Shown here piece by piece: positions 15,766 through 62,407 of a stretch of DNA of 64,000 nucleotides (its first letter is position 1; every line of letters begins with the position of its first letter). The notes under the pieces are model-generated. The model saw nothing but the letters and a program-made list of their open reading frames with translations. It searched no databases and had not been told where the DNA came from. Origin of the DNA: Prosapia bicincta. Lineage: Eukaryota > Arthropoda > Insecta > Hemiptera > Cercopidae. The stretch lies in contig JBAIZL010000002.1 of the NCBI GenBank assembly GCA_036971475.1, forward strand, positions 355,100,082 through 355,164,081. Reading direction: 5' to 3'. A program made the position numbers and the translations under genes.

Positions 15766-15879
15766 ATTTTGGTGCATGTTGCATCACCTCCAACCAATCC
15801 TTCTCTTCAGTCGGTTAAGGATTCAATCACTAACAATACCTCTACTAGCTTAGTTCAAGATTCACAGCAGCATTATTCA

Positions 15880-16272
15880 ACTGTAATACTAGGGCCTGCA
15901 GTTATTCATCTCAAGGAGTCAAACGGCCTGTTTCAACCTGTTAGAGCAATTATTGACTCATGTGCCCAAACTTCCTTCATGACATCTGCCTGTGCAAAGC
16001 GTTTAGGGTTGGTACGAAGAAAATGTTCATTCCATATAGCTGGTCTAGCTCAGAATGAGGTCAAGGGTACTAAAGGAGTTGTCACGTGTATACTAAAGCC
16101 TCGAGACTCCATAACTCCTCAACTAAATACTGAGGCTGTGATACTTTCAAAAATCACTGCTCAAGTGCCTAGCGTTCATATTCCCACTCACATCGTCTCC
16201 AAGTTGAAACATCTATATTTGGCTGATCCCACATACCCTATTTTCACATACCCACTCAGATTGATTTTCTGA
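15880..16272 (+). pseudogene. BEL/Pao aspartic protease (copy B), altered active site
   Basis: Same frame as the zinc knuckles. Visible: VILGPAVIHLKESNGLFQPV then RAIIDSCAQTSFMTSACAKR. BEL proteases normally carry D-S/T-G at this place; here codons 15955-15963 read Asp-Ser-Cys, so the active-site Gly is replaced. The frame ends at a TGA (16270), while the adjoining linker continues in another frame to the RT. Confidence 0.85.
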
Positions 16273-16289
16273 TAGCTGCGGATTTATTT

Positions 16290-17418
16290 ATTGAGGTCTA
16301 TGATGGGCAACAGCTCTGTACTACGGATGGCTGCCCCTCCGCTCTTCATAGCATCTTTGGTTGGGTTATTACAGGAAAGTTGAAGTATAAGCAACCTCAG
16401 CTTGCACTCACATCATCACGCTTGCTTATTTCAAGTCCAAGTAGTATTAACAGAAGTTTAAGACGTTTCTGGGAGATAGAGGAAGTTCCTCATATGATAC
16501 CTCCCAACCCAGGTGATGTCCAATGTGAAGAGAGTTTTAAGGAATTACACTATCGTGATATGGAAGGTCGTTATGTTCTTCCTCTTCCAATAAGAGAAAG
16601 TGATAACGTCTTAAGTCAGTCACGCGACCAAGCAACCAATAGGTTCAAGTACCTGGAGAAAAGGTTAGGGCGTGATGTCAATCTGTATAGAGAGTATAAG
16701 TCCTTTATGAGGGAATATGTTAACCTTGCACACATGCGTCTCTTATCAAATAATTCGCCTCAAGAACTACCCTATTTCATACCTCATCACTGCGTTATCA
16801 AAGATTCTAGTTCATCCACTAAGGTTCGTGTACTGTTCGATGCATCTATGAAGACTACAAATAATAGGTCACTAAATGATATACTGTTGACAGGGCCTAA
16901 GCTAGAAAATGATATTGATGATGGTTTGGTAAAATTTCGATTGCATCCATTAGTTTTAATTGCGGGTATTTGTAAGATGTACAGGCAAATATTAGTCCGT
17001 TCACAAGATCGAAAGTATCAGCATATTCTCTGGCTGGAAAACCCCAACGAGTCGATCCAGGAATTTGAACTCATGACAATTACGTATGGTGTTTCATCTG
17101 CTCCTTATTTGGCTTTGCGAACATTGAAACAACTTGCTATAGACGAAGGAGATAAGTTCCCTCTTGCAGCCAAGGCTCTTCAAGAGGACATTTATATTGA
17201 TGATATTCTGACAGACGCATGTTCAAGAAGCATTGGATTTACAAAATCAACTTATAAATCTTCTTGCTTTGGGAGGATTCAGTCTTCATAAATGGAGCAG
17301 CAATTACGCTAGCTTACTTGAGGCTATACCTGACGAACACAAGGAAGTTCCTATTTCGTTGGATTCAGATGGAAATCACATCATCAAGATTTTACGTCTT
17401 CAATGGATTGCTAAATAA
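16290..17418 (+). pseudogene. BEL/Pao reverse transcriptase (copy B)
   Basis: Open from about 16290 to 17291. Motifs: RFWEIEEVPH at the start, ELPYFIPHHCVIKDSSSSTK, VRVLFDASMKTTN, SLNDILLTGPKL, then AGICKMYRQILV, TYGVSSAPYLALRTLKQLA and the catalytic box YIDDIL (17193-17210). The residue that should be the first catalytic Asp (DI.KMYRQ) is Gly, codon GGT at 16965-16967. A frameshift near 17230 moves the thumb (LLALGGFSLHKWSSNYASLL) into the frame 17233-17418, ending in TAA. Confidence 0.93.
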
Positions 17419-17421
17419 GAC

Positions 17422-18111
17422 ATGTTCTCTTACAGTATAACTCCCATCAACCTAATATACACAAAACGTGCCATTTTATCCCATATCTCACGCATATTTG
17501 ATCCTCTCGGTTGGCTATCCCCTGTGATTATATTGGCCAAAACCATGGTTCAAAGACTTTGGATACTTGGGCTTAGTTGGGATGATGAAGTTCCCCCAAA
17601 CCTTCAAAAGGAATGGGCAACCTTTGCCTCGCAACTACACCTTCTATGTAATATAAAATTAAGCCGGTTTACAGTGTCTCCGGGGTCAGGCCTATGCTAC
17701 CTTGTAGGTTTTTCCGATGCTTCTGAAAAAGGATACAGTGCTGTAATTTATTTGATTGACTGTACAACCAACACAGCTACGTCTCATCTTATTATTGGGA
17801 AGTCAAAAGTGGCACCTTTTAAAACATTTTCTATTCCTCGGTTGGAACTTTGTGGAGCATTATTACTCTCAAGAATGTTTGATTATCTTAAAAAATGTTT
17901 AAGTGAAGTTTTGCAAATAGAAGGGACATTTGCATTTACTGATTCAATGGTGGTGATTAATTGGCTAAAAACGCCTCCTTATTTGCTCAAAACCTTTGTT
18001 GCTAACCGTGTGACAGAAATATTGGAGATATTAGTTCCTAACAGCTGGCATTATGTGTCAACAAATCTAAACCCAGCGGATTGTATTTCTCGGGGTCTGT
18101 TCCCTAGTTAA
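17422..18111 (+). pseudogene. BEL/Pao RNase H domain (copy B)
   Basis: 229-codon open frame. Motifs in order: ISRIFDPLGWLSPVIILAK (connection), LVGFSDASEKGYSAVIYL (Asp), FKTFSIPRLELCGALLLSR (Glu), FAFTDSMVVINWLKTPP (Asp) and NLNPADCISRGLFPS. All RNase H catalytic positions look present. A TAG stop separates it from the integrase part. Confidence 0.92.
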
Positions 18112-18399
18112 TTCATAGCTCATTCGCTTTGGTGGTTCGGCTTATTATTCATGACATCACCCATAAAGGAATGGCCGCTGCGGTACGCACCTTGCTCAAG
18201 TACGAATGTATTACCAGATATCAAGTTGAATATTGATACTATTTGTGTCGCTGAAACCAAAACACCAAGTTTTAACTTAATTGATAAATTGTCTTCGTTT
18301 ACCAGGTTAATAAGAGTAAGCGCCTTGTGCAAACGATTTTAAACAAACTGTCATACACAATCTAAAATTAAAGGTTCATTATCTCATACTGAGTTAGGT

Positions 18400-19746
18400 T
18401 CATCTCTACATTTCTGGATTCAATACACACAGAAAAGGTACTTTGCAGAAGATCTAATTTCACTTAAAGGTGGAGGAGAGACATCAAATCCCCTTAGGAA
18501 ACTGAACCCTTTTTTAGACAATCGTGGGCTTCTTAGGGTAGGGAGTAGGCTTCGGAATGCTGCCTTGCCACAAGACTTTAGACATCCTATTCTACTACCC
18601 AAGTTAAGCCGCTTGACTACACTCTTAATCGAGCATTATCACAAATCTTATTTACATGTTGGACCACGCACACTACAATCATTTATTCAACAGAAGTATT
18701 GGATTCTGAGTATTAGCAGTGCTATTAGGTCCACACTCTCCAAGTGTCTCACCTGTAATAAAATGAAGCCAACGTTCATACATCCTCGTATGGGAGATCT
18801 TCCACCCTCACGAACAAGTCAAGGACGACCGTTCATATCTACTGGAGTGGATTTCGGCGGTCCTATTTTAATTAAGGAATCTATACGACGAAATGCTAAG
18901 ATGTTTAAGGCATATATTTGTTTGTTTATGTGTCTATCTACAAAAACCGTCAATATCGAAGTGGTTTCGGATCTTTCAACCGATGCATTTTTGGCTGCAC
19001 TCGATAGATTTGTCAGTAGACGAGGTATTTGTCACTATATGTTTTCCGACAATGGAACGAACTTTGTGGGAGCTAACAAGTACCTGACAGGCATATTCAA
19101 GTACTTCGAAGAGCCTAATAATAAAGCTAGGATAACTGAACATTGCAGCTCTAAAGGAATCTCTTGGAATTTCAACCCACCTGACGGTCCTCACTTTGGA
19201 GGTCTGTGGGAGGCCGGAATACGTTCCACAAAATACCATCTCAAGAGAGTGCTAAATGGACAAGCTCTCACCTTTGAAGAATTATCAACACTATGTGCAA
19301 AAATTGAGGCAATTTTAAATTCCAGGCCATTATCTCCGTTATCCACACACGCTAATGATTTTGATGTTTTAACACCCGTACACTTTCTCAACAGCTCTGC
19401 TCTGACCGCAGTATCTGAACATGACCTTCAAGAATTACCCATGATTCGTTAAGTCGCTGGCAACTAATTTCAAAGGCCGTCCAACATTTCTGGACACATT
19501 ACAGGATTGAGTATTTGCACACGCTACAACAGCGTAGTAAATAGACAACGGAATCACCAAACGTGTCTAAAGGTGACTTGGTACTCCTTCAAGATACCGA
19601 CTCTCCACCATTACGTTTGGCAGTTGGGAAGAATTGAAGATACATTCCCAGGAAAGGATGGTGTTGTGGTCGTATCAGTACGAACCACGCGAGGGACTTT
19701 CCAACGCCCAGTCGTCAAGATAAGTCCTCTCCCTTACCATGACTAA
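18400..19746 (+). pseudogene. BEL/Pao integrase (copy B)
   Basis: HHCC-type region HYHKSYLHVGPRTLQSFIQQ...CLTCNKMKP at about 18636-18770. Catalytic core: STGVDFGGP (Asp codon 18850), MFSDNGTNFVGA (Asp codon 19048) and GGLWEAGIRSTK (Glu codon 19210); Asp-Asp and Asp-Glu spacings are 66 and 54 residues, as in BEL/Pao. A TAA near 19450 interrupts before the C-terminal domain (19455-19746; IEYLHTLQQRSK, KGDLVLLQDTDSPPLRL, GRIEDTFPGKDGVVVVSVRT), which ends in TAA. Confidence 0.93.
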
Positions 19747-23739: not shown

Positions 23740-28042
<4,303 letters not shown>

Positions 28043-28086
28043 GATGTCTAGATGATGAATGGTGCCTTTCCCTGCCACTACACGTG

Positions 28087-28094
28087 TATATATA
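28087..28094 (-). promoter_or_regulatory. TATA box of the secreted-protein gene
   Basis: TATATATA on the minus strand, 45 bp upstream of the exon 1 ATG (28042), implying a start of transcription near 28060 and a short leader. Confidence 0.5.
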
Positions 28095-28099
28095 GCTCT

Positions 28100-29480
28100 A
28101 TAGGCCTAACGAGCGTATCATTAGCCACGCCCTAATAAAATATAAGCATTAAATTAGATATTCTAGTAAATAGAATAATAGCAGTTATTGAATTCTGATA
28201 TAATGGCATCAATTAAAATTATTCACACTGCGAAAGTTTCTCTGCTTTTGCAATTCTTAACCCATATTTCAATAAAAGGTTTGTTTCTAATGTTTCAAGA
28301 TATATTTATATGTTATTAATAAATTTAAAATATTTCAAAAACAATAATAATTTTATTATATACTCTTGCTTGGAAATGTTTTAAATTTATTAATTGTATT
28401 GAATATTTTGATTTTTCGCCAGGTTAAAAAAGCATCTTAGTAAGAGAAAAACTTTAAAATATCTATTAAGTAGCGTGTAAGAAAATATTTAGGGTTGTAT
28501 GCATTTAAACAGGAAAATATATTTTTTCCCCCTTTGCTTAGTAGGTATTGAGACCTGAATTATCAACGCCAAAAAGTTAAAAATAAACATTTTACCTCTT
28601 CCTAATTACGAAAGCCGGTTTTGTGTTTTTATGAAATGAAATAATTGAACGTAAGGACACAAAATGTTTTCACTACTCTTGTGTATGTGTGTAAAATGAA
28701 AGACTTATATGAATATTCTTTAAAAACTCAGTAACTTTATGCGTTTGTATCTTACAGTAATATCGCATTCAATATTTCCTAATATAATAAATGCTTAGTG
28801 CGGAAATAGTATATGAAGAATATTTATACCTAATTGATGACTGTTATACCTAAATATACGCACGAAAGCTTTATGATTGGCTCGTTATTAAGTGTAAACT
28901 TATGCAAACAGAAACTTTAAAGAGTAAACTTGGATATGTTTCATGATTGTCAATATATATTGTTTTATTATTTTACTTGCATCTTTAAAACCTATTTAAG
29001 GATTGTTCAAGTTTTGACTCAAATAATAAATGTCATTATCAATTATACCATTCAATTAATTTGCAGTAATTTTTTTATGTTACTGTTATCAGGCATATTG
29101 TAAGTGGACATATTATTAAATAAATATGTATTCCTTTAAATTATTTGGTGTATTTTACTCATTTGGAAATTTATTTTCAATAAATGGAAATTAAAAAGAC
29201 AAATCAGTTTCTAATTGCTCAATAATTTCATTTTGTAGCCAGTAAAATTACTTACTTAGTAGTAAAACTATGTAAGTTGGGTTTCTGTATTTAACAAAAC
29301 ACACTAAATTAATGTCTGCGAAAATCAATTCGAAATATCCTATTTATTTTATTGAAACCTCAAAGAAAACACTTTTCGGAATCAAATAATCACAAATAGA
29401 TACAAACCGAAAACCTTATATTTTGAAATTATTCCATGTTCAGCTAAAATAACTTGTATTTTAGCGACTGTAAATTTGTT
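28100..29480. other. AT-rich intergenic stretch, nothing recognised
   Basis: No open frame of note, no repeat with a partner in the window that I could see, no RNA gene. Confidence 0.5.
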
Positions 29481-29557
29481 TATATTTATATTTAACACCA
29501 CACATTTACTGAAGGGCAATAGAGATTAGAATGGGAGTAAATCAAGTGCAATACACT

Positions 29558-29611
<54 letters not shown>

Positions 29612-29618
29612 GTTTATA
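29481..29618 (+). repeat. Repeat unit with internal (TA)n, copy 1
   Basis: Begins TATATTTATATTTAACA and runs through GGGCAATAG.GATTAGAATGG and CAATACACTCTTATA into (TA)n, ending ACCGTTTATA. Copy 2 at 43287-43430 has the same layout and orientation. The two copies flank the second non-LTR retrotransposon with its palindromic insert. Confidence 0.85.
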
Positions 29619-29623
29619 ATATA

Positions 29624-29646
29624 CCACACACACACATACACACACA

Positions 29647-29686
<40 letters not shown>

Positions 29687-29726
29687 TACACACACAACAC
29701 ACACATACACACACACACACACACAC

Positions 29727-29769
<43 letters not shown>

Positions 29770-29791
29770 CATATTTATATATATAAAGTGA
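29624..29791. repeat. (CA)n and (TA)n microsatellites
   Basis: About 100 bp of CA-rich repeat (29626-29727) followed by (TA)n (29730-29765) and variants. Confidence 0.95.
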
Positions 29792-29823
29792 ACGGAAAAA
29801 GAACTGTGCATTCAAGTACACTC

Positions 29824-30047
29824 ATCTTCACTAGGCGATATAAAACTAAATTGCTGGAGATGATCGAAATTGGTAAAAACAAAATAAGCTACGTTGAGAT
29901 CTCTAAATATCTGTGAGTGATTCTTGATAGGAAGCTACTCTGGCGTGATGACTTGGATGATACGTAAAATAAAGCCATAGCTGTGTTTTTGCAATGCAGA
30001 GGAGCTATAGGCATGAGATGAAATTTGGGTCCACGTCAGATGATCTG
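29824..30047 (+). mobile_element. Jockey/R1-like non-LTR retrotransposon, copy 2, left part
   Basis: Translated remnants of the RT thumb: FTRRYKTKLLEMIEIGKNK, SYVEISKYL then VILDRKLLWRDDLDDT and NKAIAVFLQCRGAIG, interrupted by stops. In intact elements this is directly followed by the segment found at 42263. It ends with GATCTG (30042-30047), the target duplicated by the palindromic element. Confidence 0.85.
30042..30047. other. Target site duplication, left copy (GATCTG)
   Basis: Identical to 42263-42268. Six-bp duplications are characteristic of Maverick/Polinton integration. Confidence 0.9.
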
Positions 30048-30089
30048 AGTAGAGAAGGCTATCGTTGAGGTGGGTCGATTGGGAGGGAA

Positions 30090-30323
30090 CCAATAGGAAA
30101 GCCAGATTTGCTACCCCCACCCCTTTCCAAGATGTCGGCGCCCATAAGCGCGGGAACAACATTTACACCAAGCCAATAGGAAAGCCGGATTTGCTACCCC
30201 AACCCCTTTCCAAGATGGCGGCGCCCATAAGCGCGGGAACAACATTTACACCAAGCCAATAGGAAAGCCGGATTTGCTACCCCCAACCCCTTTCCAAGAT
30301 GGCGGCGCCCATAAGCGCGGGAA
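30090..30323 (+). promoter_or_regulatory. Terminal 83-bp tandem repeats with CCAAT, YY1-like and E2F-like motifs (left arm)
   Basis: Nearly three units start at 30090, 30173 and 30256 (CCAATAGGAAAGCC). Each contains CCAAT, then AAGATGGCGGC (30212 and 30297; AAGATGTCGGC at 30129), then GCGCGGGAA (30149, 30231, 30315), the complement of TTCCCGCGC. These match the textbook NF-Y, YY1 and E2F recognition sequences. Clustered, phased and located within 300 bp of the terminus, they look like a promoter/enhancer or origin-proximal control region. Binding is inferred only from the motifs. Confidence 0.55.
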
Positions 30324-30759
30324 GTTCAAATAGTCAACTGTCTGTGAGGGAATCGGCCTATCACATTGGAGGCGCTCGGTAGGCTTACGCCTGACGGACA
30401 CCCAACACACGGACACCCGCTCCCGCAGGAGGGAGATGTGTGAAGAGTATGAATATCAGTACAACGAACACTATGTCTGTTTACAGATGTACCGAATAAC
30501 AAGGTCGATTCTCTGTAACGCCTAATACTGTGTGTAGCAAATATACAAGTTTATTGTTATCTAGACACTTGCACTCCTAACCGCTATGTGTAGAGGTGAA
30601 ATAATAATAACTCAAATATCTCTTAGCATAAGGTTAGTCTCGGAGCTCCTGCATGCTCTGTCGTGGGTATTTCCTAGCTTTATAAAGGGAAAAAACAACG
30701 AAAAAGCCTGTACCTGCTCAGACCTGCACATCCCAGCTAAATTGGATCCAACCTAACCA

Positions 30760-31070
30760 ACACATAGTAGAAGGGGTGATCTCAACAACGTACAGGACCA
30801 TCCCCGGGGGTTGTTATGAATGAAGAAGGCTCTGAATGACCTTGATCATAGACTATGGGACGTATATGACTACGTCTAGAGGTAGTTATTGGATAACTTA
30901 GGCAGGTAGAAATGGATCAAACCTACCCACAGGTATGGGGTGATCTCAACAACGATCAGGACCATCCCCAGGGGTTGGAACGGATGAAGGCGGCTCTGAA
31001 TGGCCATGATCATAGACTATGAGGTGTGTTTGACTACTTCTAGAGGTAATTAATGGAAAAAACCAAATCA
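30760..31070 (+). repeat. 164-bp tandem duplication (left arm)
   Basis: GGGGTGATCTCAACAACG recurs at 30773 and 30937; each is followed by AGGACCATCCCC.GGGGTTG, GAAGGCGGCTCTGAATG-like, ATCATAGACTATG and GACTAC.TCTAGAGGTA. A diverged copy is present at 63215-63300, in the same orientation. Confidence 0.85.
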
Positions 31071-31554
31071 GGCCTATGACGCAACCACCCCGGGACATCC
31101 TCAAAACCCTCCCCGGAGGTAGCTACCGGCGTGGGGTTATCTTAAGATATAACTGTTTAATATATGAAATATCAACGCTCGAACGACTCATGGCCCACCC
31201 TAAAATGAACGGTATAACCCAGGGTAATGAGGGATACAAGTTGAATGTTAAATGCCGCGTAGGCCGCTCACTCGAACCCTGACGGGCCAGCGCCTTAAAA
31301 ACAAAATATCTAAAAACATACCGGGTATAGCAACAGAGGTATCTAGTAGTGCCTACCTCCAAAGGTAAAAAAATAAACAGTGTAACAAAGCCTTATCGCT
31401 TGAGTGAACACGTTTGACCTACATGTGCAGGCATGCAGAGATAACGCAAATCCCTAGAACCGCAAAGACAGATAGCTACCGGTGGTCTATTTTCATATTA
31501 TAAAAATAATAAGCAGTTACCTGTACAGAAAAAATAAATACCTTTGCAGATAAG

Positions 31555-32690
31555 AGAGCAAGAACCTGGACACATAGAAGAATCAAATACGTGTGCAGAC
31601 AGAAGAAGCAAGGATCTGGACATATAGAAGAAGCAAAGACCTGGATGGATAGGAAAATAAAGGACCCGGACAGGTATACGAGGCAAAGCCTGGGCAGATA
31701 GAAAAAACAAGGATTTGGACAGGTAGACGAGGTAGGGCTTGGGCAGATAGAAGAAACAACGATCTGGACAGATAGAAGAAGCTAGGACATGGATAGGTAG
31801 ACGAGGCAGGGCCTGGACAGATTGAAGAAGCAATGACCCAGAGAGATTGATGAGGTAAGGCTTGGACAGATAGAAGAAGCAAGAACCTGGACAAATAGAA
31901 GAAGCAAATACCTGGACTGGTATACGGAGTAACGTCCCGGACAGATAGAAGAAACAAATATCTGGACAGATAAAAGAACCAAGGACTTCGGCACGTAAAG
32001 GAACCAATACTTGGACAGACGGAAGAAGCAAGGACATGAACAGATAAGAGAAGTAAGGACCTGGACGGATAGAAGAAGCAAGTACCTGGACAGATAGAAG
32101 AAGCAGGGATATGGACAGATAGGAGAAGCCTTGCCAGATAGGAGGAAGTCCTTGACCTGGACAGATAGAAGAAGCAAATACATGGACACATAGAAGAAGC
32201 AAAGACCTGGACAGATAGAATATGCAAGTACCAGGACAAATAGAAGAAGCGAGTAGTTGGACAGATAGAAGAAGTAAGGACATAGACAGATATGAGAAGC
32301 ACGGACTTGGGCAGATAGAAGAAGCAAGTACATGGATACATAGAAGAAGTAAGGATATGGATAGATAGGAGAAGCAAGGACCTGGACCGATAAAAAGAGC
32401 AAATACCTGGACAGATAGAAGAAGCAAGGACCTGTACCGATGGAAGAAGCAAGTACATGGACTGATAGAAGAAGCAAGGACCTGGACCGATAAAAGAAAC
32501 AAGCACCTGGGCAGATAGAAGAAGCAGGTACTTGGACAGATAGTAGAAGTAAGCACCTGGACAGACAGAAGAACCAAGGACCTGGACAGATAGAAGAAGC
32601 AAAGACCTGGACAGATAAAAGAAGCAATGACCTAGACTGATAGAAGAAGTAAGGACATGGACCGATAAAAGAAACAAGGACCTGGAAGAA
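31555..32690 (+). repeat. 25-bp minisatellite (left arm)
   Basis: About 45 degenerate units of a 25-bp motif (CCTGGACAGATAGAAGAAGC plus about 5 variable bases). Because 25 is not a multiple of 3 and the complement lacks stops, all three minus-strand frames stay open for 281-364 codons. This is a property of the repeat, not evidence of a protein. Confidence 0.95.
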
Positions 32691-33010
32691 ATGACGCTAC
32701 CTCATGTCCACAATATATATTAAGCGCTATTGAAAATAGACTACCGCTCATTCAATATAGTGTGTAATCTAAAGCTTTACAAAAATTGAAAAAGACCTGA
32801 CATTAACATATAATATCTCGTATCCAAAATATATATATTAAACGCTAATGAAAATAAACTACCAATCATTCAATATAATCTATGATCTAGGCTTCAGATA
32901 ATTCGAAAAATGAAGTGTGAAAATATTCTCTCCTATAAATAAACACCTATTGTATCATCTAGAGTTAACATAATTTAAAAAAAAAGACTAGTTACTTACA
33001 ATGCGAGTGT

Positions 33011-33217
33011 TTATAGGTTGTTGTGACGTAGACGCCATCTCTCGTGAATGTATGACCTGCAGTTTAACGGATCACAATAGTTGATCAAAGTATAGCTCTC
33101 CTCCTGGGTTGATTGCAGAAAGTCTTCAAAACTAAATAACTTAAATAACGGGCTTAAACAGATATAGTCTTTAAAAGATTTTATCAACGCTAGCTTTACA
33201 GATACAGGTAAGTCCAA
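33011..33217 (-). CDS. Hypothetical 68-codon open frame, possible exon (left arm)
   Basis: Identical to 39082-39288. It has no ATG; the frame opens after an AG dinucleotide that could be a splice acceptor, and reads LPVSVKLALIKSF, FSFEDFLQSTQEESYTLINY and SYIHERWRLRHNNL before TAA. Overlapping its end in another frame, an ATG (minus strand, 33038) begins MASTSQQPINTRI and runs exactly to a consensus donor GTAAGT (33039 region counterpart at 39300-39305 on the right arm). Either the frame is an exon or it is leader sequence to that short coding exon. No family recognised. Confidence 0.3.
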   Translation of the reverse strand: MDLPVSVKLALIKSFKDYICLSPLFKLFSFEDFLQSTQEESYTLINYCDPLNCRSYIHERWRLRHNNL

Positions 33218-33341
33218 ACTGTCTATATCATGTCTGTTCTATACGCATGCGCAGACCTCAATAGCGCATAGATTAAACAAAGATAGAGGCACTGTAAAAT
33301 TTATAAAAAAGAAACATGCTGAAACGTGTTAATGAATAATA

Positions 33342-33638
33342 TTACTCTGTAATGGCCAAATTCACAGTCTGGCCGACATGTTCGATAACAGTTAAAGATT
33401 TGCCTAAAATAGAGCTCAAATCTTCCACAGTCAACGCCGTAGCGTATCGCTTTGGAAGAAAGACAGCACGTCTGTCTTCATCATCTACCTGTAAGTCTAC
33501 AAGTACGGTGTTACCATACTTTGCTTCGACAAAACGCGCATTTACAATTTTATATGCCATGCCTATCTTTAGATCGCTTATAGGCATAGAATCTACAGAA
33601 TTTAAAGCTGAAAACTTTGCCGACACTGATGATGACAT
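33342..33638 (-). CDS. 98-aa small OB-fold-like protein (left-arm copy)
   Basis: ATG on the minus strand at 33638 preceded by AGTAGTAAAA, TATA box 87-93 bp upstream (33725-33731). Ser-rich N-terminus (MSSSVSAKFSALNSVDSMPI), then a compact beta-rich stretch: KIGMAYKIVNARFVEAKYGN, TVLVDLQVDDEDRRAVFLPK, RYATALTVEDLSSIL, ending TVNLAITE. The order of strand, KYG turn, strand, acidic loop and FLPKRY resembles a small single-stranded-nucleic-acid-binding OB fold; proteins with this KYG...LP.R pattern are frequent as uncharacterised entries in arthropod genomes (recollection, not checked). Transcribed toward the outer tip. Differs from the other copy at residue 21 only (Ser here, AGC; Arg there, CGC). 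A DNA-replication accessory role would fit a protein-primed DNA element but is inference. Confidence 0.7.
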   Translation of the reverse strand: MSSSVSAKFSALNSVDSMPISDLKIGMAYKIVNARFVEAKYGNTVLVDLQVDDEDRRAVFLPKRYATALTVEDLSSILGKSLTVIEHVGQTVNLAITE

Positions 33639-33724
33639 TTTTACTACTTATTGGCAAACACACACACAGATCACTTGAAACACAGACTATGTAAAAAACA
33701 CTATATCTCCACCTGTATATAATG

Positions 33725-33731
33725 TTTTATA
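33725..33731 (-). promoter_or_regulatory. TATA box of the 98-aa gene (left arm)
   Basis: TATAAAA on the minus strand, 87-93 bp before the ATG; exact mirror at 38568-38574. Confidence 0.5.
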
Positions 33732-33879
33732 CATAGCTGTGGAAGAGTCCATTTGAGAGGTGAGTGGACGAGTCCAAGCAAGTTGGACTGATCCATAATT
33801 ACGTCATAACTAAGACTGTTGATTACAACAAGGCGGGCGATACCGTATGTAGAGGTAAACACATCGTATTCGATGAGAA

Positions 33880-34180
33880 GTTTAAATACAAGTTAACACA
33901 TAATATAAAATGCACGGCCTGACTAGGGTTTAACAAACAGTATCCGATGAGTAGACTGGCTACGGTTTAACAAATAGTATCCATTGAGTAGGTTGAATAC
34001 AAACTATCACATAGTATCCATTGTAAATATTGGCTAATGGTTATCAAATAGTATCTGATACATAGCTGGGCTAATGATTAACACATTGTATCCGATACAT
34101 AGATTGACTAGGGCTAACACATAGTATCCGAGGCAAAGATTGACTAATGGTTAACACATAATATCCATTGCACGGCTTGG
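33880..34180 (+). repeat. Tandem repeats of about 60 bp (left arm)
   Basis: Units with TTAACACATAGTATCCGATR and TTGACTAGGG/GGCTAATGG recur about five times; mirrored at 38120-38420. Confidence 0.8.
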
Positions 34181-34785
34181 GTAATATATATATATATATA
34201 TAGTTAGCCTACATTTTGTGTTATGTATGTAAACCCACATATTATGCTAAGCTGGTTACCCATAGACATGGATCTATGGTAATGCAAGAGTAAGCCTAAG
34301 TGTAACCCATACCCTGACAACAGTTACCTAGCCTCACCATAGCCTACATAGGTAGACAACCGATACCTAGCCCGACCATAGGTTACATAGCTAGACAATA
34401 GATACCTAACCCTGAATCAAATACATAGCCTGACAACCGATACATAGCCTAACAACAGAGCTAGATCACAGACCAACGTTTCAACTACACAACATTATGC
34501 TATGTTTAACCAGCCAACATACACGAAGTTCAAACGAACAACATTGACACCAAGTTCAAATAGGCTATGGCTGGTGAAGGCTAGATCAACGTTGAAAAAC
34601 TTACACTAATCAACCAACAAACTTACACATAGTTCAAATAGGTTATGGAGGGTGAAGACATAATTATAGCTATCAATGCATACCAAAAATAGCTATGCAG
34701 AAACCGTCAAGGCCATTACACATATTGTCCAGGTATGTTGTATCAGTTACAACATACTGACTAATACGAGTACCTCCATCAAATC

Positions 34786-34875
34786 TTAGGTAAAGCTACC
34801 TTGGAGTCAGGCCTTAGGTAAAGCTACCTCGGAGTCAGCCCTTAGGTAAAGCAAGACCATAGGTAAAGCTCAGGT
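34786..34875 (+). repeat. 29-bp repeats GGTAAAGCTACCT.GGAGTC (left arm)
   Basis: Three to four units with TTAGGTAAAGCTACCTCGGA; mirrored at 37426-37515, and the same motif (GGTAAAGCCACCCAGGAG) is amplified at 63690-63960. Confidence 0.85.
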
Positions 34876-34922
34876 AAGGTTGGTAAAACAGCTATCTATG
34901 CATGCCCAATCTCAATAGTTAC

Positions 34923-35876
34923 GTTAAAAAGAGCTACCGATGCTCACCCTACCATAATAGCTACGTACAGACGGCTAATATTGTATAACCTATCACAAGA
35001 CTTATGTAAAAACAGCTATGCATAACCTGTCACAATAACTGCGTAAAGGCAGCTAACAATGCCTACCCCATTAAAATAGCTACGAAAAGATAACAACCAA
35101 TACATACCCTATCATAATAGCTATGTAAAGACAGCTAAAGATGCATAACCTAACTCAGTAATGACCGCTATTAAATAATGAACCATCACAACAGCCTCGT
35201 AAAGACAGCTACCAACACCACAATAGCTACGTAAAAACAGTTATCGATCCATGACCCGTATTACACCATTATGTGCGTTACCCTACATCATGTATTAAGC
35301 CAATAAACGCCTAAACCTACATTCCTCCTGTATTAAGCCACGCTACCCCTACATAGGCCTACACCCTGTAGCCAATATGCACGGTACCCTACATTAGCCG
35401 TTAAAAAGAGCTACCGATGCTCACCCTACCATAATAGCTACGTACAGACGGCTAATATTGTATAACCTATCACAAGACTTATGTAAAAACAGCTATGCAT
35501 AACCTGTCACAATAACTGCGTAAAGGCAGCTAACAATGCCTACCCCATTAAAATAGCTACGAAAAGATAACAACCAATACATACCCTATCATAATAGCTA
35601 TGTAAAGACAGCTAAAGATGCATAACCTAACTCAGTAATGACCGCTATTAAATAATGAACCATCACAACAGCCTCATAAAGACAGCTACCAACACCACAA
35701 TAGCTACGTAAAAACAGTTATCGATCCATGACCCGTATTATACCATTATGTGCGTTACCCTACATCATGTATTAAGCCAATAAACGTCTAAACCTACATT
35801 CCTTCTGTATTAAGCCACGTTACCCCTACATAGGCCTACACCCTGTAGCCAATATGCACGGTACCCTACATTAGCC
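34923..35876 (+). repeat. 477-bp tandem duplication (left arm)
   Basis: Units 34923-35399 and 35400-35876, both starting GTTAAAAAGAGCTACCGATG, nearly identical (for example CGTAAAGAC versus CATAAAGAC). Internally made of shorter degenerate repeats (ATAGCTACGTAAAGACAGCT). Mirrored at 36425-37378. Confidence 0.95.
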
Positions 35877-36063
35877 TACAGATTGCGTTAGGGCAACATA
35901 CATGTAAACCTGTATTAGGTATATATGGGTGTTAACCTCCATAGGCCTACATATTGTGTTAGGTCGATATACCTGTAAATCTGCAGACACCCTGCATTAA
36001 GCCAATATGCATGATACGGTACATAGGCCTATAAGTCAATAAACAGTGTTGTTACGTTTCATT

Positions 36064-36237
36064 CACAGATGACCTGCCGATGGTCCGGATGCCGTCTTGA
36101 CCGACATTTTGTTTGAGGTCATTTGCTGCGGTTATGTTGATATGTCCAGAGTGAGCTATTGCGGTCATAACAGTATTAATGTAAGGTTTTAAACAAGCAT
36201 ATATTTGTCGAGCTCTGTGTGTATGATCTACACCTGC
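36064..36237 (-). other. Unique spacer at the centre of the palindrome, open in one frame
   Basis: 174 bp present once, exactly 58 codons. The minus-strand frame is open through the whole spacer and a few codons into each arm (36052-36255; GVDHTHRARQIYACLKPYIN, then AIAHSGHINITAANDLKQN). It may be a slice of a larger coding gene of the parent element, trapped when the arms were joined. No family recognised. Confidence 0.6.
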
Positions 36238-38567
36238 AATGAAACGTAACAACACTGTTTATTGACTTATAGGCCTATGTACCGTATCATGCATATTGGC
36301 TTAATGCAGGGTGTCTGCAGATTTACAGGTATATCGACCTAACACAATATGTAGGCCTATGGAGGTTAACACCCATATATACCTAATACAGGTTTACATG
36401 TATGTTGCCCTAACGCAATCTGTAGGCTAATGTAGGGTACCGTGCATATTGGCTACAGGGTGTAGGCCTATGTAGGGGTAACGTGGCTTAATACAGAAGG
36501 AATGTAGGTTTAGACGTTTATTGGCTTAATACATGATGTAGGGTAACGCACATAATGGTATAATACGGGTCATGGATCGATAACTGTTTTTACGTAGCTA
36601 TTGTGGTGTTGGTAGCTGTCTTTATGAGGCTGTTGTGATGGTTCATTATTTAATAGCGGTCATTACTGAGTTAGGTTATGCATCTTTAGCTGTCTTTACA
36701 TAGCTATTATGATAGGGTATGTATTGGTTGTTATCTTTTCGTAGCTATTTTAATGGGGTAGGCATTGTTAGCTGCCTTTACGCAGTTATTGTGACAGGTT
36801 ATGCATAGCTGTTTTTACATAAGTCTTGTGATAGGTTATACAATATTAGCCGTCTGTACGTAGCTATTATGGTAGGGTGAGCATCGGTAGCTCTTTTTAA
36901 CGGCTAATGTAGGGTACCGTGCATATTGGCTACAGGGTGTAGGCCTATGTAGGGGTAGCGTGGCTTAATACAGGAGGAATGTAGGTTTAGGCGTTTATTG
37001 GCTTAATACATGATGTAGGGTAACGCACATAATGGTGTAATACGGGTCATGGATCGATAACTGTTTTTACGTAGCTATTGTGGTGTTGGTAGCTGTCTTT
37101 ACGAGGCTGTTGTGATGGTTCATTATTTAATAGCGGTCATTACTGAGTTAGGTTATGCATCTTTAGCTGTCTTTACATAGCTATTATGATAGGGTATGTA
37201 TTGGTTGTTATCTTTTCGTAGCTATTTTAATGGGGTAGGCATTGTTAGCTGCCTTTACGCAGTTATTGTGACAGGTTATGCATAGCTGTTTTTACATAAG
37301 TCTTGTGATAGGTTATACAATATTAGCCGTCTGTACGTAGCTATTATGGTAGGGTGAGCATCGGTAGCTCTTTTTAACGTAACTATTGAGATTGGGCATG
37401 CATAGATAGCTGTTTTACCAACCTTACCTGAGCTTTACCTATGGTCTTGCTTTACCTAAGGGCTGACTCCGAGGTAGCTTTACCTAAGGCCTGACTCCAA
37501 GGTAGCTTTACCTAAGATTTGATGGAGGTACTCGTATTAGTCAGTATGTTGTAACTGATACAACATACCTGGACAATATGTGTAATGGCCTTGACGGTTT
37601 CTGCATAGCTATTTTTGGTATGCATTGATAGCTATAATTATGTCTTCACCCTCCATAACCTATTTGAACTATGTGTAAGTTTGTTGGTTGATTAGTGTAA
37701 GTTTTTCAACGTTGATCTAGCCTTCACCAGCCATAGCCTATTTGAACTTGGTGTCAATGTTGTTCGTTTGAACTTCGTGTATGTTGGCTGGTTAAACATA
37801 GCATAATGTTGTGTAGTTGAAACGTTGGTCTGTGATCTAGCTCTGTTGTTAGGCTATGTATCGGTTGTCAGGCTATGTATTTGATTCAGGGTTAGGTATC
37901 TATTGTCTAGCTATGTAACCTATGGTCGGGCTAGGTATCGGTTGTCTACCTATGTAGGCTATGGTGAGGCTAGGTAACTGTTGTCAGGGTATGGGTTACA
38001 CTTAGGCTTACTCTTGCATTACCATAGATCCATGTCTATGGGTAACCAGCTTAGCATAATATGTGGGTTTACATACATAACACAAAATGTAGGCTAACTA
38101 TATATATATATATATTACCCAAGCCGTGCAATGGATATTATGTGTTAACCATTAGTCAATCTTTGCCTCGGATACTATGTGTTAGCCCTAGTCAATCTAT
38201 GTATCGGATACAATGTGTTAATCATTAGCCCAGCTATGTATCAGATACTATTTGATAACCATTAGCCAATATTTACAATGGATACTATGTGATAGTTTGT
38301 ATTCAACCTACTCAATGGATACTATTTGTTAAACCGTAGCCAGTCTACTCATCGGATACTGTTTGTTAAACCCTAGTCAGGCCGTGCATTTTATATTATG
38401 TGTTAACTTGTATTTAAACTTCTCATCGAATACGATGTGTTTACCTCTACATACGGTATCGCCCGCCTTGTTGTAATCAACAGTCTTAGTTATGACGTAA
38501 TTATGGATCAGTCCAACTTGCTTGGACTCGTCCACTCACCTCTCAAATGGACTCTTCCACAGCTATG

Positions 38568-38574
38568 TATAAAA
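38568..38574 (+). promoter_or_regulatory. TATA box of the 98-aa gene (right arm)
   Basis: TATAAAA 93 bp upstream of the ATG at 38661. Confidence 0.5.
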
Positions 38575-38660
38575 CATTATATACAGGTGGAGATATAGTG
38601 TTTTTTACATAGTCTGTGTTTCAAGTGATCTGTGTGTGTGTTTGCCAATAAGTAGTAAAA

Positions 38661-38957
38661 ATGTCATCATCAGTGTCGGCAAAGTTTTCAGCTTTAAATT
38701 CTGTAGATTCTATGCCTATACGCGATCTAAAGATAGGCATGGCATATAAAATTGTAAATGCGCGTTTTGTCGAAGCAAAGTATGGTAACACCGTACTTGT
38801 AGACTTACAGGTAGATGATGAAGACAGACGTGCTGTCTTTCTTCCAAAGCGATACGCTACGGCGTTGACTGTGGAAGATTTGAGCTCTATTTTAGGCAAA
38901 TCTTTAACTGTTATCGAACATGTCGGCCAGACTGTGAATTTGGCCATTACAGAGTAA
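38661..38957 (+). CDS. 98-aa small OB-fold-like protein (right-arm copy)
   Basis: Same gene as 33342-33638, mirror-placed and pointing toward the right tip. ATG 38661 in context TAAAAATGTC; stop TAA at 38955-38957. Residue 21 is Arg (CGC) instead of Ser. All other residues are the same, so either the arms were copied recently or conversion keeps them alike. The ORF on the opposite strand (108 codons) is a shadow. Function as for the left copy: inferred nucleic-acid binding, not shown. Confidence 0.7.
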   Translation: MSSSVSAKFSALNSVDSMPIRDLKIGMAYKIVNARFVEAKYGNTVLVDLQVDDEDRRAVFLPKRYATALTVEDLSSILGKSLTVIEHVGQTVNLAITE

Positions 38958-39081
38958 TATTATTCATTAACACGTTTCAGCATGTTTCTTTTTTATAAAT
39001 TTTACAGTGCCTCTATCTTTGTTTAATCTATGCGCTATTGAGGTCTGCGCATGCGTATAGAACAGACATGATATAGACAGT

Positions 39082-39288
39082 TTGGACTTACCTGTATCTG
39101 TAAAGCTAGCGTTGATAAAATCTTTTAAAGACTATATCTGTTTAAGCCCGTTATTTAAGTTATTTAGTTTTGAAGACTTTCTGCAATCAACCCAGGAGGA
39201 GAGCTATACTTTGATCAACTATTGTGATCCGTTAAACTGCAGGTCATACATTCACGAGAGATGGCGTCTACGTCACAACAACCTATAA
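39082..39288 (+). CDS. Hypothetical 68-codon open frame, possible exon (right arm)
   Basis: Mirror of 33011-33217 with identical translation. Preceded by GACAG (possible acceptor, 39076-39080); the out-of-frame ATG at 39261 opens 13 codons (MASTSQQPINTRI) ending exactly at donor GTAAGT (39300-39305). If the donor is used, the rest of that gene is missing from the arm or lies beyond the minisatellite. Confidence 0.3.
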   Translation: MDLPVSVKLALIKSFKDYICLSPLFKLFSFEDFLQSTQEESYTLINYCDPLNCRSYIHERWRLRHNNL

Positions 39289-39608
39289 ACACTCGCATTG
39301 TAAGTAACTAGTCTTTTTTTTTAAATTATGTTAACTCTAGATGATACAATAGGTGTTTATTTATAGGAGAGAATATTTTCACACTTCATTTTTCGAATTA
39401 TCTGAAGCCTAGATCATAGATTATATTGAATGATTGGTAGTTTATTTTCATTAGCGTTTAATATATATATTTTGGATACGAGATATTATATGTTAATGTC
39501 AGGTCTTTTTCAATTTTTGTAAAGCTTTAGATTACACACTATATTGAATGAGCGGTAGTCTATTTTCAATAGCGCTTAATATATATTGTGGACATGAGGT
39601 AGCGTCAT

Positions 39609-40744
39609 TTCTTCCAGGTCCTTGTTTCTTTTATCGGTCCATGTCCTTACTTCTTCTATCAGTCTAGGTCATTGCTTCTTTTATCTGTCCAGGTCTTTGC
39701 TTCTTCTATCTGTCCAGGTCCTTGGTTCTTCTGTCTGTCCAGGTGCTTACTTCTACTATCTGTCCAAGTACCTGCTTCTTCTATCTGCCCAGGTGCTTGT
39801 TTCTTTTATCGGTCCAGGTCCTTGCTTCTTCTATCAGTCCATGTACTTGCTTCTTCCATCGGTACAGGTCCTTGCTTCTTCTATCTGTCCAGGTATTTGC
39901 TCTTTTTATCGGTCCAGGTCCTTGCTTCTCCTATCTATCCATATCCTTACTTCTTCTATGTATCCATGTACTTGCTTCTTCTATCTGCCCAAGTCCGTGC
40001 TTCTCATATCTGTCTATGTCCTTACTTCTTCTATCTGTCCAACTACTCGCTTCTTCTATTTGTCCTGGTACTTGCATATTCTATCTGTCCAGGTCTTTGC
40101 TTCTTCTATGTGTCCATGTATTTGCTTCTTCTATCTGTCCAGGTCAAGGACTTCCTCCTATCTGGCAAGGCTTCTCCTATCTGTCCATATCCCTGCTTCT
40201 TCTATCTGTCCAGGTACTTGCTTCTTCTATCCGTCCAGGTCCTTACTTCTCTTATCTGTTCATGTCCTTGCTTCTTCCGTCTGTCCAAGTATTGGTTCCT
40301 TTACGTGCCGAAGTCCTTGGTTCTTTTATCTGTCCAGATATTTGTTTCTTCTATCTGTCCGGGACGTTACTCCGTATACCAGTCCAGGTATTTGCTTCTT
40401 CTATTTGTCCAGGTTCTTGCTTCTTCTATCTGTCCAAGCCTTACCTCATCAATCTCTCTGGGTCATTGCTTCTTCAATCTGTCCAGGCCCTGCCTCGTCT
40501 ACCTATCCATGTCCTAGCTTCTTCTATCTGTCCAGATCGTTGTTTCTTCTATCTGCCCAAGCCCTACCTCGTCTACCTGTCCAAATCCTTGTTTTTTCTA
40601 TCTGCCCAGGCTTTGCCTCGTATACCTGTCCGGGTCCTTTATTTTCCTATCCATCCAGGTCTTTGCTTCTTCTATATGTCCAGATCCTTGCTTCTTCTGT
40701 CTGCACACGTATTTGATTCTTCTATGTGTCCAGGTTCTTGCTCT
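39609..40744 (+). repeat. 25-bp minisatellite (right arm)
   Basis: Mirror of 31555-32690; unit CTTCTTCTATCTGTCCAGGT plus about 5 bases. All three plus-strand frames are open; translations have a 25-residue period and are rejected as genes. Confidence 0.95.
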
Positions 40745-41986
40745 CTTATCTGCAAAGGTATTTATTTTTTCTGTACAGGTAACTGCTTATTATTTTTATA
40801 ATATGAAAATAGACCACCGGTAGCTATCTGTCTTTGCGGTTCTAGGGATTTCTCTGTCTTTGCAGATATCTCTGCATGCCTGCACATGTAGGTCAAACGT
40901 GTTCACTCAAGCGATAAGGCTTTGTTACACTGTTTATTTTTTTACCTTTGGAGGTAGGCACTACTAGATACCTCTGTTGCTATACCCGGTATGTTTTTAG
41001 ATATTTTGTTTTTAAGGCGCTGGCCCGTCAGGGTTCGAGTGAGCGGCCTACGCGGCATTTAACATTCAACTTGTATCCCTCATTACCCTGGGTTATACCG
41101 TTCATTTTAGGGTGGGCCATGAGTCGTTCGAGCGTTGATATTTCATATATTAAACAGTTATATCTTAAGATAACCCCACGCCGGTAGCTACCTCCGGGGA
41201 GGGTTTTGAGGATGTCCCGGGGTGGTTGCGTCATAGGCCTGATTTGGTTTTTTCCATTAATTACCTCTAGAAGTAGTCAAACACACCTCATAGTCTATGA
41301 TCATGGCCATTCAGAGCCGCCTTCATCCGTTCCAACCCCTGGGGATGGTCCTGATCGTTGTTGAGATCACCCCATACCTGTGGGTAGGTTTGATCCATTT
41401 CTACCTGCCTAAGTTATCCAATAACTACCTCTAGACGTAGTCATATACGTCCCATAGTCTATGATCAAGGTCATTCAGAGCCTTCTTCATTCATAACAAC
41501 CCCCGGGGATGGTCCTGTACGTTGTTGAGATCACCCCTTCTACTATGTGTTGGTTAGGTTGGATCCAATTTAGCTGGGATGTGCAGGTCTGAGCAGGTAC
41601 AGGCTTTTTCGTTGTTTTTTCCCTTTATAAAGCTAGGAAATACCCACGACAGAGCATGCAGGAGCTCCGAGACTAACCTTATGCTAAGAGATATTTGAGT
41701 TATTATTATTTCACCTCTACACATAGCGGTTAGGAGTGCAAGTGTCTAGATAACAATAAACTTGTATATTTGCTACACACAGTATTAGGCGTTACAGAGA
41801 ATCGACCTTGTTATTCGGTACATCTGTAAACAGACATAGTGTTCGTTGTACTGATATTCATACTCTTCACACATCTCCCTCCTGCGGGAGCGGGTGTCCG
41901 TGTGTTGGGTGTCCGTCAGGCGTAAGCCTACCGAGCGCCTCCAATGTGATAGGCCGATTCCCTCACAGACAGTTGACTATTTGAAC

Positions 41987-42220
41987 TTCCCGCGCTTATG
42001 GGCGCCGCCATCTTGGAAAGGGGTTGGGGGTAGCAAATCCGGCTTTCCTATTGGCTTGGTGTAAATGTTGTTCCCGCGCTTATGGGCGCCGCCATCTTGG
42101 AAAGGGGTTGGGGTAGCAAATCCGGCTTTCCTATTGGCTTGGTGTAAATGTTGTTCCCGCGCTTATGGGCGCCGACATCTTGGAAAGGGGTGGGGGTAGC
42201 AAATCTGGCTTTCCTATTGG
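41987..42220 (-). promoter_or_regulatory. Terminal 83-bp tandem repeats with CCAAT, YY1-like and E2F-like motifs (right arm)
   Basis: Exact mirror of 30090-30323: TTCCCGCGC, GCCGCCATCTT and ATTGG recur three times within 280 bp of the right tip. Confidence 0.55.
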
Positions 42221-42262
42221 TTCCCTCCCAATCGACCCACCTCAACGATAGCCTTCTCTACT

Positions 42263-42268
42263 GATCTG
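42263..42268. other. Target site duplication, right copy (GATCTG)
   Basis: Identical to 30042-30047, directly after the terminal CT of the element. Confidence 0.9.
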
Positions 42269-43286
42269 GATTCTTTCTGCCACTATGGTGCCGAAGTTGG
42301 TCTTTGCCTCAATCGTCTGGTGGGACAAGGCACAGAAAGAAACAAGTTAAAGAGTGCTGGACCGCTTGCTGGGGCTCTTCCTTAGAGGAATAATAGGTAC
42401 AAGGAGAAGCACACCATGTGCGGCCATTAGGGTTATATTGAGTTTTCAAATAAGGATGAGGAAATAAAAACCGCATACCGGCTAAGTTGTACGGGGCAGT
42501 GGAACACAAGTAGCAAACGTCATAAACAGCTATTTGGTGATTCACTGAAGGGGCTGGATAGAACCTCAGAATAAGATACTGCCAATTAAAAAGAAAAAAG
42601 GAAATTACAAAATAAATATTCCTGCAAGAGAAGCATGGGCAGAGTGTAGACCCCAACATGGTGAAATCTGGTTCACGGATGTGTCCAAGATGAAGGAAGA
42701 CGTGGGAGCAGAATTTAGTGGACCGAGACACCAATAAAGGTTTTGTCATCACCTGGAAGACTACAACTCTGCTTTCCAGGGGAGGTGCTCGAGTTCAAAC
42801 TATGTGCTGAGGAAATAATGGGTCCTGGCAAGAGTGGCAGGACCATCTGGATTTGCTCGGTCAACAAGGCAGCTCTGAAAGCTTTAGGTGAGGTTAGTAT
42901 TAGCTCTAGGCTGGTGGCTGGTACTATAGATTCTCTACCAGAGCGGAGTAAGTATAATTCGTTCACCCTAACCTGAATTCCAGGACATTCTGCCTGTATA
43001 GGGATTTAGAGTTGACGCCCTAGCAAAACAAGTGTGTATAACTCAAGGACCGTTGCTGAGGGCAGTTGACATGCCGCCTCAGGAGAGGCGCAAGAGGATC
43101 ACGACACATATAGGCCTATACAGGTTGTGCAGGGAAGAATGGAATGCGACCTTGTGGTGCAACAAAATTCATTGTGCTGTGGGGTTACTCGGGAGACTTG
43201 TGGGGCAAAGAACTACTCTCCTTAAGTAGACCTTAACTCATGGTTGCTGTAGAGCTGGTCACAAGACATGGGAGTCTGGTGGGGCT
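42263..43286 (+). mobile_element. Jockey/R1-like non-LTR retrotransposon, copy 2, right part
   Basis: Continues the sequence cut at 30047: the WW motif region (VFASIVWWDKAQ), then LGLFLRGIIGTRRSTPC-like, RNase H pieces (FTDVSKMKEDVGAEFSGP, LCAEEI, ICSVNKAALKALG, IPGHSACIGI) and the C-terminal tail up to VELVTRHGSLVGL, where it is truncated by the (TA)n repeat unit at 43287. Diverged from copy 1 but collinear, and it provides the uninterrupted reference for the gypsy insertion site at 11137. Confidence 0.88.
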
Positions 43287-47759: not shown

Positions 47760-48556
47760 CAACATTCTGAATCCGTAAGTGTGACAATAGTAGCAATGGA
47801 CGTTTGTTATATACAGGACAGACATTACAGGAGATGTGTCATATTGCAAACTTAACCCGTAAGTGTGTCTATAGTAGCACTGGCCGTTTATTATATACAG
47901 GACAGGCATTACAGGAGATGTGTCATATTGTCAACTGAACCCGTAAGTGTGTCTATAGTAGCACTGGCCGTTTGATATATATATACAGGACAGGCATTAC
48001 AGGAGATGTGTCATATTGCCAACTGAATCCGTAAGTGTGGGTATAGTAGCAATGGGCGTTTGTTATATACAGGACAGGCATTACAGGAGATGTGTCATAT
48101 TGCCAACTGAATCCGTATGTGTGTCTATAGTAGCACTGGCCGTTTGTTATATACAGGACAGGCATTACAGGAGATGTGTCATATTGCCAACTGAATCCGT
48201 AAGTTTGACTATAGTAGCCCTGGCCGTTTGTTATATACAGGACAGGCATTACTGGAGATTTGTCATATTGCCAACTGAATCCCTAAGTGTGGCTATAGTA
48301 GCCCTTGACGTTTGTTATATACAGGACAGGCATTACAGGAGATGTGTCATATTGCCAACTGAATCCGTAAGTGTGGCTATAGTAGCAATGGGCGTTTATT
48401 ATATACAGGACATGCATTACAGGAGATGTGTCATATTGCCAACTGAATCCGTAAGTGTGACTATAGTAGCCCTGGCCGTTTGTTATATACAGGACAGGCA
48501 TTACAGTAGATGTGTCATATTGCCAACTGAATCCGTAAGTGTGGCTATAGACAAGT
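47760..48556. repeat. 84-bp satellite array
   Basis: About 9.5 units; GACAGGCATTACAGGAGATG starts at 47901, 47989, 48073, 48157, 48241, 48325, (48409 with CATG) and 48493. The period is 84 except one unit with extra ATAT. As 84 is 28 codons, both strands hold periodic open frames that are not genes. Confidence 0.97.
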
Positions 48557-48559
48557 GTA

Positions 48560-49575
48560 ACGTGTAAAATTTTAATATTAAATCTATTTTATTGATAGCA
48601 TTATTGTTAACAAAATTGTTCCCTGAGCAAGACATCATATTTTACAAAATAACGGTGATTCAATGTGTCTATTAATATATCTATGTATAATGTATATGTT
48701 CCTATTCTTATCTCTACGATTCTTCAAACTTATCTCTACCTTACAATCTAAAACTAGGGTTATTGGATACAGATAAACGTAGACCGAGAGACTAATAATT
48801 TCTACGAAAATAAATGTAGAAAGATATTTCATTTATCACAAGTGAGAAGTGAATGTTTTATTTATCAATTCTGCAGCTTATATCAACGTACTACAACTTA
48901 GTTAAATATTATTATGATTGACTATTTTGTGTTGTTTTTGTTTTGTCTTATTTTTCCATTAATTATTTCTTATTGTCATTACAATTTCACCATTACGGAT
49001 TGTAGCTGTCCCAACCGTAATGAAAATATTCAATAATGACCTGGAGATGTTATTTTATTTGTTCTTCTAAAATTTTGATTGTTATCAGGACATTTTCAAT
49101 GTTCCCTATTACAAGTAGAACCAGAGCTTAATCCTGATCCTGTATTTCAAACTTGTAACATCAATGTTAAAATAACAGATCTTGGAAATGCAAGTTGGGA
49201 GGTAAGTGATATTCTATAAAACTGTTTTTGTTTAAATGCATGAAGGTAATATTACTAGTTTCAACTCAACGAATTTTTCTACTTATAATAAGAGTAAATT
49301 TATGAAAACACTTACTGAGACATATCAGATTTAATTGCACAAAGCCGTCTTCGTAAAGGTTCTATGTGCTGAGACATCATTGAGACACTGATTAAGATCG
49401 CTTGTTGCAATAAAAACCACTATATCTAAATACGATTTTCAAAAACTGACTTAAATTTTAGTTCCTACAGGTTGTTAATTTCTCAAGTTCAAACGTAAAC
49501 ATTTTGACAATTGTCATGTACAACGAAATCCCCAAAAGTCAACAGCTTCTTTCATTGAAAGGTATGTAATCCTAT
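48560..49575. other. AT-rich non-coding stretch, nothing recognised
   Basis: No coding sequence or partner repeat seen. Confidence 0.5.
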
Positions 49576-62373: not shown

Positions 62374-62407
62374 GACATTTCGGTATATAGATCACTATCA
62401 TCATCAG
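62374..62407 (-). ncRNA. Hammerhead-ribozyme-like core
   Basis: Minus strand: CTGATGA (intact), TGATAGTGATCTATATACC (ATAG/CTAT stem), GAAA, TGTC. Core boxes intact, with a GTC-type triplet after a very short stem III. Confidence 0.35.

Follow-up and report, generated by a model that had tools for sequence, protein, structure and literature searches.

A 12.2-kb palindromic insertion in the genome of Prosapia bicincta with probable Maverick/Polinton-type ends

Results

A palindromic element bounded by a target-site duplication

The DNA analysed here is a 64,000-nucleotide stretch of the genome of the hemipteran Prosapia bicincta (assembly GCA_036971475.1, contig JBAIZL010000002.1, positions 355,100,082 to 355,164,081 of the forward strand), hereafter called the window; coordinates refer to it unless they are given as arm positions. 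At 30048-42262 lies a palindromic element of 12,215 bp, which consists of a 6016-bp arm and a 6025-bp inverted arm with a 174-bp spacer between them, and whose outer edges carry a perfect 6-bp target-site duplication (TSD). Its main parts are as follows.

30042-30047, unstranded: left TSD, GATCTG, identical to 42263-42268.
30048-30053, plus strand: left terminus, AGTAGA, agreeing at 5 of 6 letters with the Maverick (AGT)2 motif in the available text of PMC8097293.
30048-36063, plus strand: left arm, 6016 bp, an inverted match to 36238-42262.
36064-36237, unstranded: unique spacer, 174 bp (self-BLAST and sequence).
36238-42262, minus strand: right arm, 6025 bp, an inverted copy of the left arm (self-BLAST and MAFFT).
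42263-42268, unstranded: right TSD, GATCTG, identical to 30042-30047.

When the window was compared with itself by BLAST, one inverted match dominated (30048-36063 against 42262-36238; 99.75% identity over 6027 columns, E = 0), with 2 mismatches and 4 gap openings. The arms make up 12,041 of the 12,215 bp (98.6%). Alignment of the arms with MAFFT revealed a single isolated substitution (T at 33578, G at 38721 in the same orientation), a complex indel (31443 in the left arm, 40856-40866 in the right arm; net length 11 bp) and a difference of one 2-bp TA unit (34184-34185). Three mismatched columns that adjoin the 11-bp indel are alignment-dependent and were excluded from the count of arm substitutions. 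The 11-bp word is present twice in the right arm, 26 bp apart, and once in the left arm, at the indel site. A preliminary description of the locus, made from the sequence alone, had placed a 12.2-kb palindrome with near-perfect arms of about 6 kb around 174 unique bp at these coordinates, and had listed an 11-bp indel, a TA repeat count and single bases as sampled arm differences; self-BLAST and the arm-to-arm alignment, respectively, confirmed both statements.

The TSD was absent from that description, as were the tandem repeats of the arms, the 98-codon frame in each of them and the arm-like sequence near the right end of the window. The element's ends are flush with it and symmetrical, and the sequences outside its two copies are unlike each other, indicating that this is an inserted element and that the whole palindrome arrived in one insertion. 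We are therefore close to certain that the interval is a real transposed element, and its earlier designation as mobile is upheld by the TSD. No 8-bp reading of the TSD was obtained among the trims tried. Self-BLAST also found a direct repeat with 84% identity at 10415-11137 and 42334-43039. Because the second copy starts 66 bp to the right of the TSD, the palindrome adjoins an older repeat.

Terminal sequences

The ends of the element read 5'-AGTAGAGAAGG...CCTTCTCTACT-3', with AGTAGA...TCTACT outermost. According to the available text of PMC8097293, the commonest end motif of vertebrate Mavericks is (AGT)2//(ACT)2, with (AG)3//(CT)3 and (AC)3A//T(GT)3 also occurring, and their TSD is 6 bp; AGTAGA shares 5 of the 6 letters of (AGT)2, which is a vertebrate consensus. 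The accessible parts of two other sources give a 6-bp TSD for Polintons (PMC10045372) and, typically, for Polinton-like viruses with an rve integrase (PMC12220804). Together, the 5/6 end match and the 6-bp TSD are suggestive, though not proof, of Maverick affinity, and we judge from the sequence that the ends are probably of the Maverick/Polinton type.

Two other groups of DNA transposons with 6-bp TSDs, IS3EU and GingerRoot, are named in the same part of PMC10045372, with ends TA..TA and, occasionally in GingerRoot, TG..CA. The palindrome fits neither group, as it ends in AG..CT. A scan of viral contigs with the 17-bp terminus returned 6 matches, which by estimate is about the chance level for such a short word in a collection of that size.

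Tandem repeats and coding content of the arms

The arms contain arrays with units of 25, 28, 37, 39, 83 and 477 bp, as detected by Tandem Repeats Finder (TRF). From the outer end inwards, the order is the 83-bp repeats, the 25-bp repeats, a 98-codon reading frame, the 37-, 39- and 28-bp repeats, and the 477-bp duplication.

30090-30323, plus strand: subterminal 83-bp tandem repeat, 2.8 copies (TRF), with CCAAT, AAGATG(G/T)CGGC and GCGCGGGAA.
31552-32686, plus strand: 25-bp minisatellite, about 46 copies, 71% match (TRF).
33342-33638, minus strand: left-arm 98-codon frame, a possible gene (open reading frame (ORF) and sequence).
34785-34852, plus strand: 28-bp repeats (TRF), alike to the putative relative at 63678-63968.
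34922-35876, plus strand: 477-bp tandem duplication, copies differing at 5 sites (self-BLAST and TRF).
38661-38957, plus strand: right-arm 98-codon frame, with a single residue changed (S21R).
41987-42220, minus strand: mirror-image counterpart of the subterminal 83-bp tandem repeat (TRF).

The 83-bp units hold CCAAT, AAGATGGCGGC (with T for G in one unit) and GCGCGGGAA, stretches that we take to resemble NF-Y, YY1 and E2F sites, that is, sites of cell-cycle promoters. The window contains the word TTCCCGCGC 6 times, against an expectation of 0.01 occurrences, and all six lie within the 83-bp repeats and their mirror copy. Scans of viral contigs and of prokaryote genomes for exact occurrences of a 30-bp core of the 83-bp repeat returned none (0 in each).

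A six-frame Pfam search of the left arm and of the spacer detected no transposase, integrase, polymerase or other Polinton domain; the genes for protein-primed PolB, retroviral-type integrase, capsid, protease and ATPase were likewise not found there. This excludes only membership among the autonomous Mavericks/Polintons, because a non-autonomous derivative need not carry those genes.

The 98-codon frame may be the only protein of the element. It is intact in both arms, points outwards and differs between them only by S21R; one TATAAAA lies about 90 bp upstream of it and a second lies inside it. A frame of this length could arise by chance (20.7% of 1000 shuffles), and searches with its product detected no relatives. 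A single-sequence structural model of the 98-residue product had an oligonucleotide-binding (OB)-like order of elements at low confidence (predicted local distance difference test score 51, versus 35 for the opposite-strand frame) and gave no significant fold matches. On the minus strand of the spacer there is a 68-codon open stretch, for which the best E-values were 0.12 in PHROGs and 0.15 in Pfam (for the frame), with nothing in NCBIfam. Neither a tRNA (ARAGORN) nor an Rfam family at gathering score was detected in the 64-kb window.

The arms became alike after the internal duplication

The two 477-bp units show 5 differences in 478 bp, and the same five are present in both arms. All five are C/T or G/A transitions. 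The arms themselves differ by one isolated substitution per approximately 6,000 bp, about 60-fold fewer per site than the 477-bp units. Because the five differences are common to both arms and the arms are near-identical, the arms arose, or were homogenised, considerably later than the 477-bp duplication. This agrees with the earlier view of a palindrome that is very young or maintained by arm-to-arm conversion, in that the element is either young or recently homogenised.

A putative relative near the right end of the window

63135-64000, plus strand: putative end of a diverged relative, with AGTAGT at 63135 and arm-like modules from 63201; it leaves the window.

BLAST aligned arm positions 691-764 with 63336-63409 (80% over 74 bp, E = 8e-12). 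Arm positions 760-834 (71%) and 936-998 (78%) both matched 63201-63277, the 28-bp repeats at arm positions 4737-4837 matched 63678-63968, and one module was 85% identical over 65 bp (E = 3e-12). The best match of the arm scored 73.4 bits, versus 22.0-26.5 bits for 7 of 7 other window chunks of the same size, a control that omitted 24065-30047 and 60311-63134. The first shared module, at 63201, lies 66 bp inside the perfect AGTAGT at 63135, and the orientation from the terminus is the same as in the arm. Since AGTAGT occurs 20 times on the plus strand of the window, its presence within 66 bp has a chance probability of about 2%. The interval 63135-64000 could be one end of a second Maverick-type element. 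These likenesses suggest a wider family with Maverick-type ends of which the arm is a member, and in which the arms of this copy have grown by tandem arrays.

Surroundings

Pfam was run on 10 of the 34 listed frames of the window and detected reverse transcriptase, RNase H, integrase and protease domains, several of them below the Pfam cut-off; the pieces read as BEL/Pao- and Gypsy-like retroelements. Those at 249-4039 and 14590-19452 read as BEL/Pao-like and are broken into several frames. Among the best 120 of 5133 proteins related to the integrase region (18343-19452), 27 had organism names, and all 27 were arthropods. Nine of the 27 named relatives among the matches listed are hemipteran. 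Taken by themselves, these matches make an arthropod host likely, and probably an insect. At 47767-48550 there is an 84-bp satellite (9.3 copies, 91% match), with a 201-codon stop-to-stop frame at 47962-48567.

Discussion

By its structure the element is like Galileo and Foldback, and by its ends it is most like Maverick/Polinton. On balance we give a slight preference to a young, non-autonomous element with giant terminal inverted repeats (TIRs) and Maverick-type ends, which was mobilised in trans and whose arms were homogenised at copying. Under this explanation, the TIRs would have grown until they were nearly the whole element. The 6-bp TSD and the AGT...ACT ends suggest an integrase of the Maverick/Polinton type. 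Because none of the Maverick/Polinton genes was found in the element, it probably borrows the enzymes of another one; integrase and polymerase would be supplied in trans by an autonomous relative elsewhere. During copying, either a long hairpin would form from the strands or each arm would convert the other, so that the two arms emerge with the same sequence; what little distinguishes them would have arisen after insertion. Homogenisation of the arms when the element is copied is fairly probable. As to how the palindrome formed, a route described for Galileo, in which long TIRs grew and the core was lost, is evenly poised between true and false in our estimate, and snap-back copying of one end is a tentative second candidate; we lean to TIR growth because the arms are without gene sequence.

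In the available text of PMC8097293, intact vertebrate Mavericks are 12,723-24,620 bp long, have TIRs of 46-1,447 bp and contain eight conserved ORFs, except in Xenopus tropicalis, where there are seven. The palindrome resembles this vertebrate set in its 6-bp TSD, in its AGT-type ends with inverted ACT and in having TIRs. It is unlike them in that its TIRs are 6 kb long and in that no Polinton domain was found. In the open literature, as judged by titles and the openings of abstracts, no description of a palindromic Polinton was found among the matches listed.

Several observations weigh against the explanation that we favour. The end match is 5/6 rather than 6/6, and such a match to any of the three motifs has a chance probability of 0.014 before the choice of superfamily is allowed for. 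The length of the TSD rests on a single insertion, and it can also be read as 7 bp (TGATCTG) by taking one base off the right end, which makes the ends unsymmetrical; this reading slightly lowers our confidence in the Maverick-type ends and in the explanation as a whole. No Polinton gene was seen in the left arm and spacer, and no further full copy in the window. As for the relative, its terminus at 63135 is a putative one among 20 occurrences of AGTAGT, its other end lies outside the window, and part of its likeness to the arm is the 28-bp tandem repeat.

The alternative that fares best, though we think it unlikely, is that the palindrome is a defective genome, in which a protein-primed Maverick strand folded back and copied its own arm, giving a palindrome with an origin at both ends as in defective genomes of adenovirus and adeno-associated virus, then integrated and was perhaps kept as a satellite of its parent. 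The Maverick-type ends and the near-perfect arms, separated by a short spacer of loop size (174 bp), are consistent with such an origin, as is the precedent of the snapback genomes of adeno-associated virus. However, no parent carrying a single such arm was found in the window, tandem repeats abound in the arms, and no Polinton domain was detected, in contrast to a coding-dense intact Maverick, and snap-back of an ordinary Polinton end fits less well because more gene sequence would be expected in the arms. The preliminary description had proposed this origin from a Polinton-type parent. Such a parent gains support from the terminal sequence and the 6-bp TSD; the snap-back origin gains none from the coding content of the arms, which hold one plausible small frame and no recognisable Polinton domain.

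A more elaborate and doubtful version is a palindromic Maverick satellite, a snap-back genome without parental genes that would have a replication origin and an integrase site at each end, would renew arm identity in each protein-primed round, and would carry in duplicate a small protein that perhaps binds single-stranded DNA. If true, it would be the chromosomal counterpart of defective interfering viral genomes. Palindromic defective genomes of adenovirus carry the origin at both ends, as this satellite would. The defective genomes of adenovirus and adeno-associated virus (AAV) are viral genomes in particles, not chromosomal insertions, and depend on different replication proteins. The likeness of a palindrome that keeps its origin at both ends extends to AAV, for which the available text of PMC8235507 describes snapback genomes as a major category of defective particles.

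A Foldback- or Galileo-like cut-and-paste element, with arms lengthened by tandem-repeat growth and arm conversion and with a chance likeness to Maverick ends, is in our view rather improbable. Long TIRs with internal tandem repeats, the structural feature of the Foldback class, make up most of the palindrome. Drosophila Foldback and sea-urchin TU elements have long inverted repeats composed of tandem repeats, as here, but their TSDs are 9 and 8 bp long, respectively. The closest parallel in the available text of PMC4168063 is copy 112 of Galileo, a P-superfamily element of D. willistoni, which is 9,021 bp long with TIRs of 4,246 and 4,680 bp. Like the palindrome, this copy is nearly all TIR, has tandem repeats in its TIRs, lacks a transposase segment and is flanked by identical TSDs. 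The same text describes tandem growth, recruitment of internal sequence and TIR-to-TIR transfer as routes of TIR growth. The preliminary description was thus correct that the arms are the element, but overstated the contrast with normal DNA transposons. The 7-bp reading of the TSD with unsymmetrical ends would suit Galileo, whose TSDs in D. willistoni, according to that text, are usually 7 bp long, with some of 8 bp. In contrast, the TSD of the palindrome is 6 bp when the ends are taken as symmetrical, and its arms are near-identical and 6.0 kb long rather than unequal TIRs of 4.2 and 4.7 kb; its ends fit Maverick better, and the nearby relative begins near AGTAGT.

Finally, fold-back reads are known to yield near-perfect palindromes, but it is highly improbable that one arm was assembled twice in inverted orientation, through such reads or a misjoin through terminal repeats, because a fold-back palindrome should not normally stop at a TSD that has unlike sequence outside it, and because a substitution, a complex indel (11 bp repeating a neighbouring stretch) and a TA unit distinguish the two arms.

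We return to the favoured explanation, a giant-TIR element with Maverick-type ends. For genome assembly, the locus is a caution that even a near-perfect palindrome of 12 kb can be genuinely inserted DNA. Arm pairs of this kind could be used to measure whether hairpin copying homogenises inverted repeats. Giant-TIR elements that are nearly all palindrome are already known in Galileo, of the P superfamily. If the Maverick-type ends are true, virus-like, protein-primed transposons would also yield giant-TIR palindromic elements.

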